Part shown: piece by piece, positions 10,844 to 17,169 of the stretch
Numbering within the stretch: the first letter of the stretch is position 1
Layout: each line of letters begins with the position of its first letter
DNA from: Opitutaceae bacterium
Lineage (GTDB): Bacteria > Verrucomicrobiota > Verrucomicrobiia > Opitutales > Opitutaceae
Reading direction: 5' to 3'
Assembly: GCA_027482185.1 (NCBI GenBank)
Contig: JAIXWF010000011.1
Coordinates: forward strand, 372,001-436,000
DNA length: 64,000 bases
Notes under the pieces: model-generated
Databases searched by the model: none
What the model was told of the DNA's origin: nothing
What the model saw: only the letters and a program-made list of their open reading frames with translations
Made by a program: the position numbers and the translations under genes

Positions 10844-11539
10844 TCAGCCCGTGAGTTCGTCGGCGACCACGGCGCCGCTCTTGAAACGGAGGATCCGGCC
10901 GCACTTGCGCGCGAGCTCGGGATCGTGGGTGACGAGCACGAGCGTCGTGCCGCGCTCGTGGTTGAGCCCGAAAATCAACTCGACCATCGCCTGCGCGGTG
11001 GCGCCGTCGAGATTGCCCGTGGGCTCGTCGCAAAAGAGAATCTTCGGCCGATTCATGAAGGCCCGCGCGAGCGCGACGCGCTGCTGTTCGCCGCCGGAAA
11101 GCTGGATCGGATAGTGGTCGGTGCGGGCGCCGAGCCCGACGCGGCCGAGCAGGGCCTGCGCCTCGGCCTCGGCGGCCGGGCCGCCTTCGCCGCGGAGCTC
11201 GACGGGCACGAGGACGTTTTCCAAAGCGGTCAGCGTGGGAACCAATTGGAAATTCTGGAAAACGAAACCGACGTGCGCGTTGCGGACGCGGGCGCGGGCG
11301 TCCTCGGACATTTCGCCGATCGATTCGCCGGCGAGAACGACGTCGCCCGTGGAGGGCCGGTCGAGCCCGGCGCAAAGGCCGAGGAGCGTGGTTTTGCCGC
11401 TGCCGCTCGGGCCGACGATCGCGAGGCTGGCGCCGCGGCCGAGCTCGAAGCTGACCTCTTTCAATACGGTCAACGGACCGGCGGCGGTGGCGTAAGTCTT
11501 GGTCAGCCGCTGGACTTTCAGCATCGATTGCTCACTCAT
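10844..11539 (-). CDS. ybbA: ABC transporter ATP-binding protein, YbbA/LolD family
   Basis: 231-residue ABC ATPase. Walker A is GPSGSGKTT, the signature is LSGGEQQRVALARA, Walker B is ILFCDEPTGNLD and the H-loop is VLVTHD. The LolD/MacB/YbbA subgroup is recognised by KTYATAAGPLTVLKEVSFEL at the N-terminus. Two starts are possible, ATG 11539 (MSEQSMLKV) and ATG 11524 (MLKV); the first gives only 41 bases to the divergent tesA start. It is the first gene of the ybbAP operon. Confidence 0.94.
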   Translation of the reverse strand: MSEQSMLKVQRLTKTYATAAGPLTVLKEVSFELGRGASLAIVGPSGSGKTTLLGLCAGLDRPSTGDVVLAGESIGEMSEDARARVRNAHVGFVFQNFQLVPTLTALENVLVPVELRGEGGPAAEAEAQALLGRVGLGARTDHYPIQLSGGEQQRVALARAFMNRPKILFCDEPTGNLDGATAQAMVELIFGLNHERGTTLVLVTHDPELARKCGRILRFKSGAVVADELTG

Positions 11540-11580
11540 GAAGGGCCCACGAAACACACGAATGTCGTTTAATCGAGCCG

Positions 11581-12240
11581 ATGCGGACTGATCTTTGGCG
11601 GAAACTTGCACCTTGGTTCGCGCTCGCGGCGGCCTGCTGGACGACGGTCGGGACGGCGGCGCCGGCGACGCCCCGGAACCTCGTTTTCTTCGGCGACAGC
11701 CTGACGGCGGGCTACGGCCTCGACGACCCGGCGTCCGAAGCCTACCCGGCGTTGATCCAAAAGAAAATCGACGCCGCCGGCGGGGGCTGGCGCGTCGCCA
11801 ATGCCGGCCTGAGCGGCGAAACCTCCGCCGGCGGGCTCCGCCGCATCGATTGGATGCTGCGGCAACCGGTCCATCTCTTTGTGCTCGCGCTCGGCGCCAA
11901 CGACGGCCTGCGCGGCCTCAGCCCCGAGGTCACCCGGGCCAACCTCCAGCAAATCATCGACCGGGTGCGCGCGAAGAACCCCGCGGTCACGATCGTGATC
12001 GCCGGCATGGAAATGCCCCCGAGCTACGGCGCGGATTTCACCGGTGCCTTCCGCGCGGTGTTTCCCGCGTTGGCCGAGAAGAACGGCGCCACGTTGATTC
12101 CTTTCCTGCTCGACGGCGTGGGCGGGGTCGCGGCCCTGAACCAAGGCGACCGCATCCACCCCAATCCGGCCGGCCACCGCAAAGTGGCGGAAAATGTCTG
12201 GGCGGTCGTCGGGCCGCTCTTGCGGCAAAAGCCGGATTGA
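11581..12240 (+). CDS. tesA: Arylesterase/acyl-CoA thioesterase I-like SGNH hydrolase
   Basis: 219-residue secreted SGNH hydrolase of the TesA group (thioesterase I/lysophospholipase L1). The N-terminal signal peptide has a hydrophobic core WFALAAACWTTVGTA ending near A26. The four catalytic blocks are all present: S40 in FFGDSLTAG, Gly in NAGLSGE, N107 in LGANDGL, and D190/H193 in DRIHPNP. It diverges from ybbA with only 41 bases between starts, so the promoters must overlap or one start is misplaced. The pairing with ybbAP suggests a shared lipid-related job in the envelope. Confidence 0.93.
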   Translation: MRTDLWRKLAPWFALAAACWTTVGTAAPATPRNLVFFGDSLTAGYGLDDPASEAYPALIQKKIDAAGGGWRVANAGLSGETSAGGLRRIDWMLRQPVHLFVLALGANDGLRGLSPEVTRANLQQIIDRVRAKNPAVTIVIAGMEMPPSYGADFTGAFRAVFPALAEKNGATLIPFLLDGVGGVAALNQGDRIHPNPAGHRKVAENVWAVVGPLLRQKPD

Positions 12241-12245
12241 TCCGG

Positions 12246-12265
12246 AGCGTCGCGTCCCCGACGCT
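12246..12265 (+). terminator. Hairpin after tesA without a clear T run
   Basis: A perfect 7-bp stem (AGCGTCG/CGACGCT) closes a 6-nt loop five bases past the tesA stop. No T tract follows, so it is only a weak candidate terminator or attenuating hairpin before the downstream plus-strand cluster. Confidence 0.3.
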
Positions 12266-12361
12266 GCGCCTCCGCTCGGCGAATCCGGCTCCACTTTGCC
12301 GGCATCCGACCGATAAATCCAAGCGTTCCAAAAAGACTCCCTCCGCCTCCGCCCTTTGCCC

Positions 12362-13237
12362 ATGCCCCGATTTGGAGTTTCCGTCCTGCTCTTCGCTCTT
12401 CTCGCGTTGCCGGCCGCGCAGGCGGTGAACCTGCGCATGGAAGCCGTCACGACCCGGATCGAAAACATCACGCGGGCGTCCTCCCCCGGGGATTGGAAGG
12501 ACGCCAATCGCCATGAGGCGCTGCTCTCCCTGGGCCAGCACCGGGAGTGGCGCACCGGCCTGCTGACCGCCGGCAGCATCGAACTCGGCGCCGAGGACGT
12601 GACGCATTTCAATCTGCTCACGGCCGCGACGCAGGGTCTCGCCGGCACCGTGCGTTGGAAATTCGGCTTCGGGCCCTTCGCGCCTTGGGTGGCCGTCGAC
12701 GCCGGCCTGCGGCATCGTGCCAGCCGCCTGGACTTCGAGGACGGCTGGACGACCACGGCCGCCCTGCGCACCGGCAAACGCCTCACGTCGAACCTGCGCT
12801 TTTCCGCGGAAGCGGATTGGCAGCAGCAGGATTCCCGCGGCGCCATGTTCGATCTCCGGCACCACCGCGTCTTCGCGACCGTGACCTGGGACATCACCTC
12901 GTGGCTGCAGTTGTCGCACGGCAACGGCCGGCTCTGGGGCTCGTTCACCGCCAACGCCTCGCCGACCGTGTGGCCGCGGGCGCTCTCCGGCGGTCTAGGA
13001 CCGGCCATCGCCGCGTATTACAACACCGTACCGTGGGCCGTCACGGATGCCTACGGCCGCGGCTGGGTCACCTACCGCGTCGACGGACATGTCAGCTTCT
13101 GGTGGCTCGAACTCTCCCCCGCCCTCGGCCGCAACACGTCGTTGCCGCTCCGTTACGAAAGCCGGTTCGCGGTCAATCGGGTCGGCGTGAAATACCGCCA
13201 GGATCTCTGGTCCCTTGCGCTCCTCCACAAATTCTAA
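12362..13237 (+). CDS. Predicted outer-membrane beta-barrel protein, first of a pair
   Basis: 291-residue secreted protein with a clear signal peptide (MPRFGVSVLLFALLALPAAQA). The mature part alternates short amphipathic strands and turns, with many Trp/Arg/Leu pairs and a C-terminal aromatic residue (LALLHKF). This is the usual signature of an outer-membrane barrel. No named family is recognised. It opens a compact plus-strand cluster: its end overlaps the second barrel gene by 23 bases, followed by a cupredoxin and a membrane adenylate cyclase. The start is the ATG at 12362; an in-frame TTG two codons upstream is less likely. Confidence 0.7.
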   Translation: MPRFGVSVLLFALLALPAAQAVNLRMEAVTTRIENITRASSPGDWKDANRHEALLSLGQHREWRTGLLTAGSIELGAEDVTHFNLLTAATQGLAGTVRWKFGFGPFAPWVAVDAGLRHRASRLDFEDGWTTTAALRTGKRLTSNLRFSAEADWQQQDSRGAMFDLRHHRVFATVTWDITSWLQLSHGNGRLWGSFTANASPTVWPRALSGGLGPAIAAYYNTVPWAVTDAYGRGWVTYRVDGHVSFWWLELSPALGRNTSLPLRYESRFAVNRVGVKYRQDLWSLALLHKF

Positions 13238-14102
13238 ACGCCTCCGCCCCCGACAGTGGCTGGGCTTGGGCGCGCTTCTGGGAACGGCCGGACCGATCCC
13301 GGCGTCCGGCGCCTCCGGTGCCGCGGTATGGACGGCGTCGACGGGCGCAGTCTGGCACAGCAACGCGACCAACGCCGATCGCGACGCCGACGTGGTCGGC
13401 GGGTTCGAGTTGAAGAACGAGCTGCTCGCGAATCGCCGTTGGAGCGCCGGACGGGACGACGCCGTCCTCGCCGGCCTGCGCCTCGCCGCCGAGACGTGGC
13501 CGAGGTACGACGGCTTGGACCGTTTCTCCGCGGGAGTCGCCCTGGGTTGGCAGCACAAATTCGGCCTGGGCTCGCGCGTGCCCGTATTGCGCCTGAATGT
13601 CTCCGGAGAACATGTCAGTGCGAGGGAATCGGGTCGCCGCGGCCTGGCCGGCACCGCCGCCTTGCAACTGCGGCAACGCCTCGGCCACTGGGGACTGCTC
13701 CAGTTTGCCCGCGAATACCAGCGCCACGATGCGCGCACCCATGCCTTCGACCGGACCGGCGCGGAATCGTCGGCGCGTTTCACGTTTGCCCCCCGTTCCG
13801 GCTGGCGGCTCACGGCGGCCGCGGCGCGACGCGACGGCGGCGTCCTTTCCTATGCCACGCCGCCGCATCCGGAACTACTGCGGAAGGCGAAGCCCCTGAC
13901 CACGGTCACGACGTTCGACCGCGCGCAGGACATGGTGGCCTACTACTTTATAGCCCGGACCGAATCCGCCCGCGCCGAGGCAGGGTTCAGTCTGGGTCCG
14001 CGCTCCGAAATCGTTTTGTCGCACGAAAGACGCACCACCTCCGAAGGCGTGGTGGCCTACCGCAATCACCTGACCTCATTCTCGATCGTCCATGAATTCT
14101 AA
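13215..14102 (+). CDS. Predicted outer-membrane beta-barrel protein, second of a pair
   Basis: About 295 residues, similar in layout to its upstream neighbour: a basic N-terminus, a hydrophobic stretch ending in Ala/Gly/Ser, alternating beta-strand-like sequence and a final aromatic (SIVHEF). There is no ATG near the start. The best start is a TTG at 13215 inside the previous gene, giving a leader KRLRPRQWLGLGALLG, so the exact N-terminus is uncertain. The stop overlaps the next gene by 11 bases, pointing to translational coupling. No family was recognised. A surface channel or receptor role is inferred only from the barrel-like pattern. Confidence 0.62.
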   Translation: MRSSTNSKRLRPRQWLGLGALLGTAGPIPASGASGAAVWTASTGAVWHSNATNADRDADVVGGFELKNELLANRRWSAGRDDAVLAGLRLAAETWPRYDGLDRFSAGVALGWQHKFGLGSRVPVLRLNVSGEHVSARESGRRGLAGTAALQLRQRLGHWGLLQFAREYQRHDARTHAFDRTGAESSARFTFAPRSGWRLTAAAARRDGGVLSYATPPHPELLRKAKPLTTVTTFDRAQDMVAYYFIARTESARAEAGFSLGPRSEIVLSHERRTTSEGVVAYRNHLTSFSIVHEF

Positions 14103-14775
14103 CCCGCTTCCCGCCGCCCGGCGCCGCCTGTTGCCGTCGTTTCTTTTCCTGTGCCTGCTCGGTCACCTCGGCGGCGCCGCCCTCCTTCCCGCCAGCGTCG
14201 TCCGGGTCGAAATCAAGGACGGCAAAGGCCAACCCGTGGCCGACGCCGTCGCTTCGCTCGTGCCGTTGGACCGTGCGCCCGTCATCGACGTGCCCGCCGA
14301 ACCGGCCGTGATCGTGCAGGACAACGAGGAATTTTCCCCGACGGTCACGGTCGTGGTGGTCGGCGGCAAAGTCGTGATTCCGAACCGCGACAAGGTGCAG
14401 CACCACGTCTACTCGCTGTCGCCCGCGAAGCGTTTCGACATCCCGCTCTACAAGGGCGAAATGAAGGATCCCGTGGTGTTCGACCGCCCCGGCATCGTCG
14501 CGCTCGGCTGCAATATCCACGACTGGATGGCGGCTTACGTCGTCGTCCTCGCGACGCCGCATTTCGCCAAGAGCGAAGCCGCCGGCACGGCGCAGATCGC
14601 AAACCTGCCGCCCGGCCGCTACCGGCTCGAGGTCTGGCACCAGCGCATCACGGCACCCGTCGTGCGCGAAGTGAACGTGAGCTCGGATCCGGCCACGCAG
14701 GTGATCGCGGTCACGCTGCGCGAGCTGCGCCAGATCCGGCGCGCGCCGGAAACCGGCGGCGGCGCCTACCGTTGA
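14092..14775 (+). CDS. Periplasmic cupredoxin-domain (blue-copper-like) protein
   Basis: 227-residue exported protein: signal peptide (hydrophobic LLPSFLFLCLLGHLGGAAL), then a beta-rich domain with possible type 1 copper ligands H104 or H105 (KVQHHVYS), C140 and H143 (ALGCNIHDWM) and M146. The C-terminal half (NLPPGRYRLEVWHQ) resembles a carboxypeptidase-regulatory-like beta domain. Proteins of this architecture are often labelled methylamine utilisation protein, but no amine dehydrogenase genes are here, so that label should not be taken as function. It overlaps the preceding barrel gene by 11 bases and precedes an adenylate cyclase gene by 99 bases, suggesting a copper- or redox-linked signalling unit. 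Confidence 0.8.
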   Translation: MNSNPLPAARRRLLPSFLFLCLLGHLGGAALLPASVVRVEIKDGKGQPVADAVASLVPLDRAPVIDVPAEPAVIVQDNEEFSPTVTVVVVGGKVVIPNRDKVQHHVYSLSPAKRFDIPLYKGEMKDPVVFDRPGIVALGCNIHDWMAAYVVVLATPHFAKSEAAGTAQIANLPPGRYRLEVWHQRITAPVVREVNVSSDPATQVIAVTLRELRQIRRAPETGGGAYR

Positions 14776-14874
14776 CCCCGCGGTCCCGGGCCGCACCCGG
14801 GGCTTGCGCCGCCCGCGCGATCCGGCCGTGATCGCGGCGATGATCGCGTCCCCCGCGCGCGCCGCGCCGCCGGC

Positions 14875-16560
14875 ATGAAATTCCTCCCGCAGAGCTTCGG
14901 CGCCAAACTGCTGGCGCTGTTCATGTCCGCCGTCGGACTCACCCAGTTCGCCACCTGGGCCTTCATCCGGGAGTTCAACGGCACCCAGGCCCGCGAGCTG
15001 ATCAACGACGAGCTCGACCGCACCACCCGCAACTTCGCGCGCGTCACGGCGGACCGGAACACCCTGCTCGCCGCCGCCGCCGCCACCGCGGCCCGCGACT
15101 ACGCGGTCAAGTCGCTCTTCGCGGGCGACGACGACGCCACGCTCGCCACCGCGCTCAAGAGTATCCGGATCTCCAGTACCGCCGACCTGGTCGCGGCGCT
15201 CGCCCTCGACGGCAAGGTCCGCGCCGCCACGCTGCCGGGCCCGGTGCCCGATGCCGCCTTCGCCGACCTCGTGCGCCGGGCCCACGCCTCGCCCGACGCC
15301 TCCGCCAAGGGCTACGGCCTCTTCGGCGGCGAACTCCACGCCCTCGTCCTCGCGCCCGTGCATGCGCCCGACATCATCGCGTGGATGGTCGTCGGCTTCC
15401 GGATCGACGACGCTTTCGCCCGCCGCCTGAAGGAGCAGACCGGAATCGACCTGACCTTCTTCGATCCGGCGGGGCGCCCGCTCGCCACCACCCTCGCGCC
15501 CGCGGTGGCCCGCGATCTCACCGCCCTGCTGCCCAGCCTGCACGAAGCCGCCAGCAGCGAGGAGGCCGTCCTCGCCGGCACCACCGCGCTGGTCCGCATC
15601 CGTCCGCTCGCCGCCGGCGGGGCCCGCAGCGGCACGCTCGCCCTGCAGTACTCCCTCGACGAAAAACTCGTCCCCGCCGAGATCGCCCAGAGCCGCCAGC
15701 TGCTCGTCGCCGTCGGCGGCATGATCGCCGCGATTTTCCTCAGCCTCGCCTTCGCCCGCGGCGTCACCCGGCCGATCGTCGAACTCGTCGGCCACACCCG
15801 GCGCATCACGCGCGGCGACTACAGCATCCGCAACCGCAGCTACCGCACCGACGAGCTCGGCCGTCTGTCCGAAGCCTTCGACCAGATGTCCCTCGGGCTC
15901 GCGGAACGCGACCGCGTGCGCGACTTGCTGGACAAGAACGTCTCGCCCGAGGTCGCCGCCCAGCTCCTGCGCGACGGCGCCACCCTCGGCGGCGAGGAGC
16001 GCGAGGTCACCATCCTGTTCGCGGATCTGCGCGGGTTCACCACCCTCAGCGAGAACCTGCCGCCGCGCGAGCTGCTCACGCTGCTCAACCGCTACCTCGA
16101 CCGCATGAGCGCCGAAATCGAGGCGCACGGCGGCGTGATCGACAAGTTCATCGGCGACGCGATCATGGCGCTGTTCGGCGCCCCGGTGCCGCAGGGCGAC
16201 GCCGCCCGCCGCGCCGTCGCCGCCGCCCTCGCGATGGAACGCGCCCTCGCCAAGCTCAACACCGAGCTCGCCGCCGAGGGCCGCCCGCCCCTCGCCATCG
16301 GCGTCGGCGTCAACACCGCCCGCGTCGTCGCCGGCAACATCGGCTCCCAGCGCCGCCTCAACTACTCCGTGATCGGCGACGGCGTGAACGTCGCCTCGCG
16401 GCTTCAATCGCTGACCCGCACGGCCGAGTACCGCACCAACGTGATCGTCAGCGCCGCCACGCTCCGCGCCGCGCAGCCCACGTTCAACACCCGCCCGCTC
16501 GGCACCGTCGCCGTCAAGGGCCGCGCCGAACCCGTCGAGATCTTCGCGATCGACGCGTGA
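14875..16560 (+). CDS. Membrane-bound class III adenylate cyclase with HAMP domain
   Basis: 561 residues: a first membrane helix (residues 10-30), a periplasmic sensory domain of about 230 residues (CACHE-like by position), a second helix near 285-305, HAMP (about 305-355), then the catalytic domain. Metal-binding D384 (FADLRGFT) and D428 (DKFIGDAIM) are present. K424 and D502 (IGDGVN) are the pair that selects ATP, and N506 and R510 complete the site, so it should make cAMP. It is the last gene of the barrel-cupredoxin cluster, so its periplasmic sensor may monitor the state of those envelope proteins. The gap before it (14776-14874) shows no terminator. Confidence 0.92.
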   Translation: MKFLPQSFGAKLLALFMSAVGLTQFATWAFIREFNGTQARELINDELDRTTRNFARVTADRNTLLAAAAATAARDYAVKSLFAGDDDATLATALKSIRISSTADLVAALALDGKVRAATLPGPVPDAAFADLVRRAHASPDASAKGYGLFGGELHALVLAPVHAPDIIAWMVVGFRIDDAFARRLKEQTGIDLTFFDPAGRPLATTLAPAVARDLTALLPSLHEAASSEEAVLAGTTALVRIRPLAAGGARSGTLALQYSLDEKLVPAEIAQSRQLLVAVGGMIAAIFLSLAFARGVTRPIVELVGHTRRITRGDYSIRNRSYRTDELGRLSEAFDQMSLGLAERDRVRDLLDKNVSPEVAAQLLRDGATLGGEEREVTILFADLRGFTTLSENLPPRELLTLLNRYLDRMSAEIEAHGGVIDKFIGDAIMALFGAPVPQGDAARRAVAAALAMERALAKLNTELAAEGRPPLAIGVGVNTARVVAGNIGSQRRLNYSVIGDGVNVASRLQSLTRTAEYRTNVIVSAATLRAAQPTFNTRPLGTVAVKGRAEPVEIFAIDA

Positions 16561-16574
16561 GGCGAACTCATGGA

Positions 16575-16682
16575 GTTGAGCGAGCTTGGTTGAGAGTTGA
16601 GAGCCGAACCGTTCGGTTTCGCATGCACGCTGCTGCGGCTACGTTTTCCGTGCTTCGGCGGATTGACCGCTCAACTCTCAAC
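16575..16682 (+). repeat. Dispersed palindromic repeat, family A copy 1
   Basis: 108-bp element between the convergent cyclase and Dabb genes. The left arm (16575-16603) and right arm (16669-16682) are inverted copies of GTTGAGAGTTGAG. Reverse-complemented, copy 2 at 25544-25658 matches through the left arm with about one mismatch in 29, then shares GAACCGTTCG and ACGTTYTCCGTGC in the middle. No open reading frame is involved. Confidence 0.8.
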
Positions 16683-16732
16683 TTTGGACTCTCGACTGCA
16701 TGATCCCGCCTGAGGCGGGCCGACGCGGATAC

Positions 16733-16759
16733 AAAAAAGGCCGCCCCGGAGGACGGCCC
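16733..16759 (-). terminator. Rho-independent terminator of the Dabb protein gene
   Basis: On the minus strand an 8-bp GC-rich stem (GGCCGTCC pairing with GGGCGGCC, one G-U) is followed by six T residues, about 25 bases after the stop of the Dabb gene. A second small hairpin, CCCGCC-TGA-GGCGGG, lies just beyond (16707-16721). Confidence 0.8.
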
Positions 16760-16782
16760 GAAGATTCCGGAAACCGAAGAAC

Positions 16783-17169
16783 TCAGTTCGTGATGTCGAA
16801 CGTCGTGCTGCGTTCGCGGATCGGCAGGTAGGCCTTGTACCATTCCTTCTGCGCCTCGCTGTCCGTGTAATCCTTGAGCGCCTGCTCGCTGGCGAATTCC
16901 ATCACGATGGCGTGCGTGCGCTCGCCCTGCGCCTTGATGGTCTTGGTCCAGACGCGGGTGATGCCCTTGTAGGCGGCCGGCAGCTTGTGGGCGCCGTCGA
17001 GGGCGGCCTGGATCTGCTCGGGCTTCGTGTCTTTCTTCCACGACACGGTGACGACGTGGATCACGGACTTGGGCGCCGTGGCGCTCGCGGCCGCGGCGTG
17101 CGCGGAGCTGGCGGAAACGCCGAGCGCAACAACGCCGGCAAGGAGGAGGGACGAGATCAGTTTTCTCAC
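16783..17169 (-). CDS. Exported Dabb-domain (stress-responsive alpha/beta barrel) protein
   Basis: 128 residues from a GTG start at 17169. A signal peptide (RKLISSLLLAGVVALGVSASSAHA) is followed by one Dabb domain: IHVVTVSWKKDTKPEQIQ, the conserved mid-part GITRVWTKTIKAQGERTHAI, and the C-terminal HisProTrp-equivalent region KEWYKAYLPIRE. Dabb proteins are dimeric ferredoxin-like barrels; most are of unknown function and this one is predicted to be periplasmic. A strong terminator follows. The GTG start is preferred because it directly precedes the charged n-region of the signal peptide. Confidence 0.83.
   Translation of the reverse strand: MRKLISSLLLAGVVALGVSASSAHAAAASATAPKSVIHVVTVSWKKDTKPEQIQAALDGAHKLPAAYKGITRVWTKTIKAQGERTHAIVMEFASEQALKDYTDSEAQKEWYKAYLPIRERSTTFDITN

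Follow-up and report, generated by a model that had tools for sequence, protein, structure and literature searches.

A predicted copper protein encoded beside dCache-HAMP receptors of varied output in several bacterial phyla

In the YfiBNR system of Pseudomonas, as set out in the available portions of two papers (PMC4655355; PMC4992967), an outer-membrane protein and a periplasmic protein are combined with an inner-membrane cyclase that carries a periplasmic sensor, and a secondary role as a redox sensor has been suggested for YfiR (PMC4655355). In HmsC-HmsD, according to the available portion of a review of cyclic diguanylate (c-di-GMP) sensing (PMC8846402), a periplasmic redox-responsive protein controls an inner-membrane nucleotide cyclase via disulfides. 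Here we analyze a locus of four genes, g1 to g4, in a stretch of 64,000 nucleotides from an Opitutaceae bacterium (contig JAIXWF010000011.1, positions 372,001 to 436,000; hereafter the window), whose predicted products are two outer-membrane barrels (g1 and g2), a periplasmic cupredoxin (g3), and a membrane receptor with an adenylate cyclase output (g4). The initial annotation of this DNA proposed that the four could form an envelope sensor reporting copper or redox state as cyclic AMP (cAMP), and knew of no described system of this make-up. Our literature search, with subscription papers and most preprints outside its coverage, found none either; the words “copper,” “cupredoxin,” and “plastocyanin” are absent from the text of PMC8846402, and the module is not described in the available portions of PMC8055020, PMC3770913, and PMC10141476. 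The idea of an envelope sensor is well supported by our results and can also be generalized, as cupredoxins of the g3 family pair with c-di-GMP enzymes, histidine kinases (HKs), and Ser/Thr kinases.

Linkage was measured in 115 related genomes, the window's own included (genomes and loci carry the prefixes G and L). A g3 match occurs in 47 of them. The 28 close relatives of g3 comprise 27 complete proteins, including that of the window, and a fragment in G016; every one (28/28) adjoins a match to the sensor half of g4. That sensor half (residues 1–305) was matched in 30 of the 115 genomes and adjoins the cupredoxin in 28 of these 30; a second sensor match in G026 is a fragment starting at a contig end. 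Matches to g1, found in 20/115 genomes, adjoin the cupredoxin in 18 (not in G060, while the G005 match lies at the end of another contig), and matches to g2, found in 24/115, adjoin it in 21 (not in G022 or G042, with the G005 match again at the end of another contig). Free separation of the genes in relatives, which the initial annotation had named as fatal to its proposal, did not occur: the cupredoxin and the sensor scarcely separate and most often have a barrel with them, with few exceptions.

A wider scan, pattern-limited and covering one genome per species in 84,980 species, confirmed 534 relatives of g3, the best 80 of which form our named set, a selection that over-represents cyclase types. 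Linkage counts from this set and from the 115 genomes are not independent, since L055–L081 and part of L095–L174 are the same contigs in two collections; the sensor and barrel profiles used for the best 80 were also built partly from the same loci, which affects presence and not position. Of the 79 best-80 loci that offer at least 600 bases of room, 76 have a same-strand sensor gene no more than 400 bases downstream. The three exceptions are L146, where the order is swapped, L163, where no sensor was found, and L164, where the best copy stands with a barrel and a second, divergent copy with a sensor. Upstream, 66 of the 74 best-80 loci with at least 900 bases of room have a g1/g2-type barrel, one in 62 loci and two in 4, which makes the barrel pair of the window a minority form. 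A rule that all four genes always occur together is thus rejected: the core is the cupredoxin and the sensor, typically with one barrel and rarely with two, and some losses occur. The best 80 come mostly from Opitutaceae bins, accompanied by records labeled Delta-, Beta-, and Gammaproteobacteria, Rhodospirillales, SAR86, Nitrospinota, Riflebacteria, Rokuibacteriota, Methylomirabilota, and Noviherbaspirillum pedocola. Matches to g3 were present in 19/194 Verrucomicrobiota genomes at E 1e-10 and in 36/185 genomes of Noviherbaspirillum's class (presumably Gammaproteobacteria in GTDB) at E 1e-15, many of the latter being short plain cupredoxins. Sixteen regions (L241–L256), picked among the stronger of 45 matches in that class with short plain cupredoxins excluded, gave a sensor-profile match within ∼2 kb in 11 cases.

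The output joined to the sensor varies. In the best 80, the following sensor gene has a cyclase output in 70 loci, a GGDEF-EAL output in 1, an HK in 1, and no recognised output in 4, with no downstream sensor in the other 4. Domains were assigned by Pfam in genes matching the g4 sensor profile, which spans residues 1–345, a range including HAMP, to which a score can be partly due. Beside the cupredoxin, such genes carry a cyclase in the window, L144, L168, and L257, and GGDEF-EAL in L169, L164, L241, and L249; others carry an HK, with or without a receiver, in L174, L244, L092, and L087, and a Ser/Thr protein kinase in L247, L250, L251, and L259. The plasmid locus L175 encodes dCache_3-HAMP-GGDEF-EAL by Pfam. 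Some receptors fall under the Pfam dCache_3 cut-off: L174, L092, L249, L257, and L258 show HAMP only, L251 a sub-threshold dCache_1, and L244 dCache_3 and HAMP, both sub-threshold. The gap between receptor and cupredoxin is ∼1.8 kb in L250 and ∼1.3 kb in L258. Eighteen output changes are placed on the best tree, with fewer forced; the resolution of this tree is poor, with stars on 9 of its 54 inner branches. As a side observation, the Cache/HAMP-type receptors with Ser/Thr protein kinase output in L247, L250, L251, and L259 are of an unusual design.

A cupredoxin paralogue is found in two-component operons. In L085, L088, L089, L090, and L091, a response-regulator gene (Response_reg plus Trans_reg_C, 5/5 by Pfam) lies directly upstream of the paralogue, and an HK gene lies downstream in the first four, with none found in L091. 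The window's genome contains three g3 relatives, one adjoining the cyclase and two adjoining HKs. Four plasmid records from Caballeronia/Novosphingobium carry genes for DUF3034, a group 1 truncated hemoglobin, the cupredoxin (labeled “methylamine utilization protein” or “carboxypeptidase regulatory-like domain”), and an EAL-domain protein, the first two being on the other strand in one record; a fifth plasmid record has a short cache-domain gene where the receptor would be, and in a Comamonas record a DUF4394 gene replaces DUF3034 and the globin. Group 1 truncated hemoglobins near DUF3034 and the cupredoxin (L175:4489–4929 and L178:3363–3926) have signal-peptide-like starts, suggesting that the plasmid globin may be periplasmic. 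Because the cupredoxin tracks the sensor half while the output, barrel family, and neighbors vary, and because the paralogue gene sits in two-component operons, the most likely role for g3 is in the periplasm, as an accessory dedicated to membrane receptors. Distant relatives of the cupredoxin in L179 and L180 adjoin genes for SCO, 5-aminolevulinate synthase, and a metallophosphoesterase.

The AlphaFold model of g3 (from 44 relatives) has a mean predicted local distance difference test score (pLDDT) of 88.1, with block means of 92–98 over residues 71–160 and of 50–72 over the last blocks, which form the C-terminal tail. Residues 68–153 match plastocyanin, amicyanin, pseudoazurin, and the cupredoxin domain of nitrite reductase (VIA Z 10.4–11.9, root-mean-square deviation (RMSD) 1.7–2.5), with Z of 11.6–11.9 to 5fc9, 1bxu, 1sf3, and 6hbe (80–90 residues, RMSD 1.8–2.2). 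Residues 35–58 and ∼155–210 correspond to transthyretin-like domains, among which the carboxypeptidase ones match best (2nsm, Z 12.2, RMSD 1.6, 78 aligned). The cupredoxin residues are flanked by two transthyretin-like halves, and the copper domain is therefore predicted to be inserted in a transthyretin-like domain. The sequence profile of the family matches copper nitrite reductase, blue copper protein, and amicyanin (E 1.2e-5 to 0.35), and Pfam returned sub-threshold matches alone (among them Cupredoxin_1 at 13.7 bits, cut-off 27; CarboxypepD_reg over 148–209 at 28.4 bits, cut-off 32.3). Since the Cupredoxin_1 score is under the cut-off and the sequence is divergent, g3 is filed as a cupredoxin by fold and ligands only.

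The initial annotation had picked out C140, H143, and M146 in g3; we recovered these three and added H104, completing a set of four copper ligands. All four are invariant in aligned relatives (24/24 and 44/44) and are kept in 117 of 120 relatives, the exceptions being the fragment L081, L260, and a tandem copy in L258. By its predicted fold and its His-Cys-His-Met set g3 is a putative type-1 (blue) copper protein, and the strict conservation of the site makes copper occupancy or redox state a natural input variable. The tandem gene of L258 (6549–7373) is a second cupredoxin-like gene without the full ligand set. In public records, relatives of g3 are labeled “methylamine utilization protein.” In eight plasmid neighborhoods of g3 relatives, to which this check was confined, no methylamine dehydrogenase (mau) genes are annotated.

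The receptor-cyclase g4 has the architecture dCache_3-HAMP-Guanylate_cyc, each domain scoring above its Pfam cut-off. Its cyclase domain conserves D384 (72/72 relatives) and D428 (71/72), which we take to be the two metal Asp residues, K424 (69/72), presumably the substrate Lys, and N505 and R509 (71/72 each), presumably the Asn-Arg pair. S498, which by class III cyclase spacing we take to be the substrate-site partner of K424, is Ser in 42/72 and Thr in 28/72 relatives. This resembles the ATP pattern of class IIIb, and the “ATP-selecting” site of the initial annotation is therefore a reasonable prediction of specificity. Two class III cyclase matches occur in the window's genome, along with seven matches to cyclic nucleotide monophosphate (cNMP)-binding proteins over the cut-off, which provide candidate cAMP targets.

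Both barrel-like proteins of the initial annotation stood up to analysis. The AlphaFold model of g1 (alignment of 50 relatives) is a 12-strand barrel with a pLDDT of 95.8. Homology extends this to g2: a g1 query retrieves the g2 of the window at E 7.7e-4 and that of L055 at 5.4e-6, and iterated profiles seeded by either gene converge on the identical 104 open reading frames (ORFs) in 95 loci. The best structural match of g1 is the COG4313 channel 4rl8 (VIA Z 19.3, RMSD 2.9, 222 aligned, 9% identity), and further Foldseek/VIA matches comprise KdgM, autotransporters, FapF, and other small barrels (∼5–14% identical); these matches only place the modeled g1 among small outer-membrane barrels. No Pfam match to g1 was found at E up to 1, and g2 gave DUF7465 alone, sub-threshold. 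A relation of g1/g2 to DUF3034 was not adopted, there being no Pfam DUF3034 match at E up to 1 and an hhalign probability of 0.4% against an 8-row DUF3034 alignment. Since the two show no detectable relation, different families may occupy the position of the barrel. An MtrB-like conduit, as in porin-cytochrome complexes of the MtrAB type, was not adopted either: there is one weak profile match, 6r2q chain B (presumably MtrB), at E 0.0092, and g1–g4 contain no CxxCH heme motif. In L092 (5041–6372) and L093 (5321–6607), proteins of 444 and 429 residues are encoded directly upstream of the cupredoxin and a hybrid kinase; they have a coiled-coil-like start and no Pfam match over the cut-off, and are possibly another barrel type.

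The C-terminal tail of the cupredoxin may be connected with the barrel. In a loose pattern, a tail ending in Tyr (mostly IRRAP..GG.Y) is present in 76/76 cupredoxins with a g1/g2-type barrel neighbor, in 1/7 with DUF3034, and in 14/37 with neither barrel type nearby. A stricter pattern compared with the barrel in 57 cases gave both in 23, neither in 26, and 4 exceptions each way. The tree offers one independent pair on starred branches, and we therefore treat the tail-barrel link as a lead only.

The ORFs bear out the initial description of four plus-strand genes with overlaps of 23 bases (g1/g2) and 11 bases (g2/g3); a gap of 99 bases separates g3 from g4, and no in-frame ATG, GTG, or TTG lies further upstream of the g4 start. 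The promoter and terminator scan of the locus was uninformative, and no Rfam family was found in 11500–17000. Chance ORFs or a GC artifact as the source of g1–g4 are ruled out by the conserved proteins and the confident models.

Table 1. Coordinates of the four genes, their domains, and a nearby stem, in positions of the window.
Feature	Position	Strand	Description	Basis
g1	12362–13237	+	outer-membrane beta-barrel (predicted), 12 strands, signal-peptide-like start	ORF; AlphaFold pLDDT 95.8; VIA Z 19.3 vs 4rl8
g2	13215–14102	+	second barrel (predicted), g1 family; TTG start within g1 end	ORF; homology to g1
g3	14092–14775	+	cupredoxin protein, signal-peptide-like start	ORF; family; structure
g3, first half of transthyretin/CarboxypepD_reg/CnaB-like domain	14194–14265	+	residues 35–58, approximate	VIA 2nsm, 1qmu over model range 35–210
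g3, inserted plastocyanin/amicyanin-like domain	14293–14550	+	residues 68–153; ligands H104 (14401), C140 (14509), H143 (14518), M146 (14527)	
g3, second half of transthyretin-like domain	14554–14721	+	residues 155–210, approximate	VIA; sub-threshold Pfam CarboxypepD_reg
g3, conserved C-terminal tail	14725–14772	+	ends IRRAP..GGG.YR	tail survey; low-confidence model
g4	14875–16560	+	membrane receptor-cyclase	ORF; Pfam
g4, dCache_3 sensor	15010–15648	+	residues 46–258	Pfam 36.0 bits, cut-off 25.7
g4, HAMP relay	15751–15900	+	residues 293–342	Pfam 45 bits, cut-off 25
g4, class III cyclase domain	16000–16545	+	residues 376–557	Pfam Guanylate_cyc 90.3 bits, cut-off 21.9; conserved residues
Intrinsic terminator-like stem	16738–16759	-	probably belongs to converging gene, not g1–g4 operon	consensus scan alone

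What computation shows, from the gene products and their linkage to the conservation of the copper site and the variety of outputs, can be read as a module in which a barrel in the outer membrane and a type-1 copper protein in the periplasm serve a dCache-HAMP receptor of varied output, here cAMP, with copper state as the input; we give this reading about an even chance of being correct. An input of copper or redox state is plausible given the conserved ligands. We infer secretion, copper binding, docking, the direction of control, and the role of the barrel as follows. The cupredoxin would be secreted, bind copper, and dock on the dCache domain, and the redox state or occupancy of the copper would alter this docking. 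The change would be relayed via HAMP to the dimeric cyclase and alter the level of cAMP, which would act via the genome's own cNMP-binding proteins. The factor that sets the cupredoxin's state might enter through the barrel or be held by it at the outer membrane, and the barrel possibly grips the conserved basic Gly-Tyr tail of the cupredoxin. The occurrence of the gene set across several phyla, with four kinds of output on the receptor, suggests a so far undescribed route by which copper or redox state outside the cell membrane is reported inward. If true, this provides a testable gene set for how bacteria turn periplasmic copper or redox state into second messengers, and the natural output swaps, with one input half joined to four output kinds, offer a ready experiment. 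The “methylamine utilization protein” label sits on proteins that adjoin receptors; should they prove to be accessories of receptors, a role would follow for a large family, with 534 relatives confirmed by the pattern-limited scan.

Several observations weigh against this reading. G031 and G052 have a cyclase with the sensor and no adjoining cupredoxin; G031 is 100% complete in 2 contigs, and in G052 (L269:2–1717) the cyclase stands directly beside an esterase gene like that upstream of g1, with no cupredoxin or barrel in the stretch read. A g2-type barrel in G022 (L082:7754–8593) lies downstream of esterase and ABC-transporter genes like those beside g1, without g1, g3, or g4, and is likely a remnant of the operon (in both genomes these neighbors were identified from sequence without a profile). 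No barrel was found in 8 of the 74 named loci with room, and no sensor near the cupredoxin of L163 or, in the stretch read, of L252–L256. The kinases of L085 and L089, which are those checked, match no dCache, HAMP, or sensor profile, and their input half therefore differs. His, Cys, and Met are all missing from the g4 sensor residues conserved at a level of at least 85%. The association of tail and barrel emerged post hoc and is not independent of descent. Finally, cupredoxin copies with no sensor found nearby adjoin SCO and hemA genes in Sinorhizobium and Phyllobacterium, in the latter also genes for a cbb3-type oxidase; given these copies and L252–L256, the family may have a broader part in copper or respiration.

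A bolder form of the copper-input reading, which we consider possible though rather doubtful, describes a class of receptors that read electrons. The blue-copper protein would serve Cache receptors as a detachable redox cofactor in trans, charged or discharged by outer-membrane partners (the barrel, in some lineages together with the exported globin), and lineages would differ in whether the oxidation state of this protein is read as cAMP, c-di-GMP, phosphorelay, or Ser/Thr phosphorylation. Alternatively, the same module could respond to a non-redox input, the outer-membrane protein sequestering the periplasmic protein under envelope change, by analogy with YfiBNR, and thereby freeing the inner-membrane enzyme, with copper in a structural role. 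The three-compartment layout in common with YfiBNR and the Tyr-ending tail of every cupredoxin with a g1/g2-type barrel neighbor are consistent with such a scheme. However, the strict conservation of the copper ligands would then be needless, the genes for exported globins found next to some relatives are a pointer to redox or gas chemistry, and the tail also occurs in cupredoxins with no barrel nearby under the loose pattern and has exceptions in both directions under the stricter one. We consider a non-redox input unlikely.

The cupredoxin could also be a sensor of copper occupancy or a chaperone, whose apo and holo forms bind dCache differently and which would report periplasmic copper and not electron flow. 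The conserved His-Cys-His-Met site would suit this role, but type-1 copper sites are usually built for electron transfer, and no copper-handling gene is annotated in the eight plasmid neighborhoods, the only flanks annotated, except for SCO beside distant homologues; we judge this account improbable. Still harder to sustain is a mere sharing of the operon, in which the cupredoxin and the barrel would perform a metabolic or electron-transfer job next to a receptor with its own small-molecule ligand. Direct binding of small ligands is common among dCache domains, and both the rare receptors without a cupredoxin (G031 and G052) and the cupredoxin relatives with no receptor found nearby would fit, yet the pairing of the cupredoxin with the sensor half persists through four outputs and several phyla, and five loci have a paralogue encoded immediately after a response-regulator gene. 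An arrangement of g1–g4 by chance is no plausible account.

Compared with known systems, YfiBNR is the closest functional analogue of the g1–g4 module, built of different parts. The three-compartment layout is common to both, whereas YfiB is a lipoprotein with an OmpA-like domain in contrast to the predicted 12-strand barrel of g1, YfiR is not a cupredoxin, and the output of YfiBNR is c-di-GMP. Accordingly, neither g1 nor g2 gives an OmpA match in Pfam at E up to 1, and g3 matches no YfiR-type Pfam family at E up to 1, having a predicted cupredoxin fold instead. Amicyanin, pseudoazurin, and plastocyanin are stand-alone electron carriers that share the fold of the inserted g3 domain and the His-Cys-His-Met site, whereas the predicted copper domain of g3 sits inside a transthyretin-like domain and is encoded beside a receptor gene. 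HmsC-HmsD differs in its use of disulfides, and no copper site or outer-membrane barrel is described for it in the available portion of PMC8846402. Cache receptors generally have in common with g4 a Cache sensor with varied outputs, and the available portion of PMC4822843 describes no partner cupredoxin for them. In the heme-bearing Cache sensors of nitric oxide, according to the available portion of PMC12889525, a redox- or gas-reactive metal center likewise serves a Cache receptor, with the heme held within the Cache domain; in the g1–g4 module, the metal would instead be carried by a separate protein.

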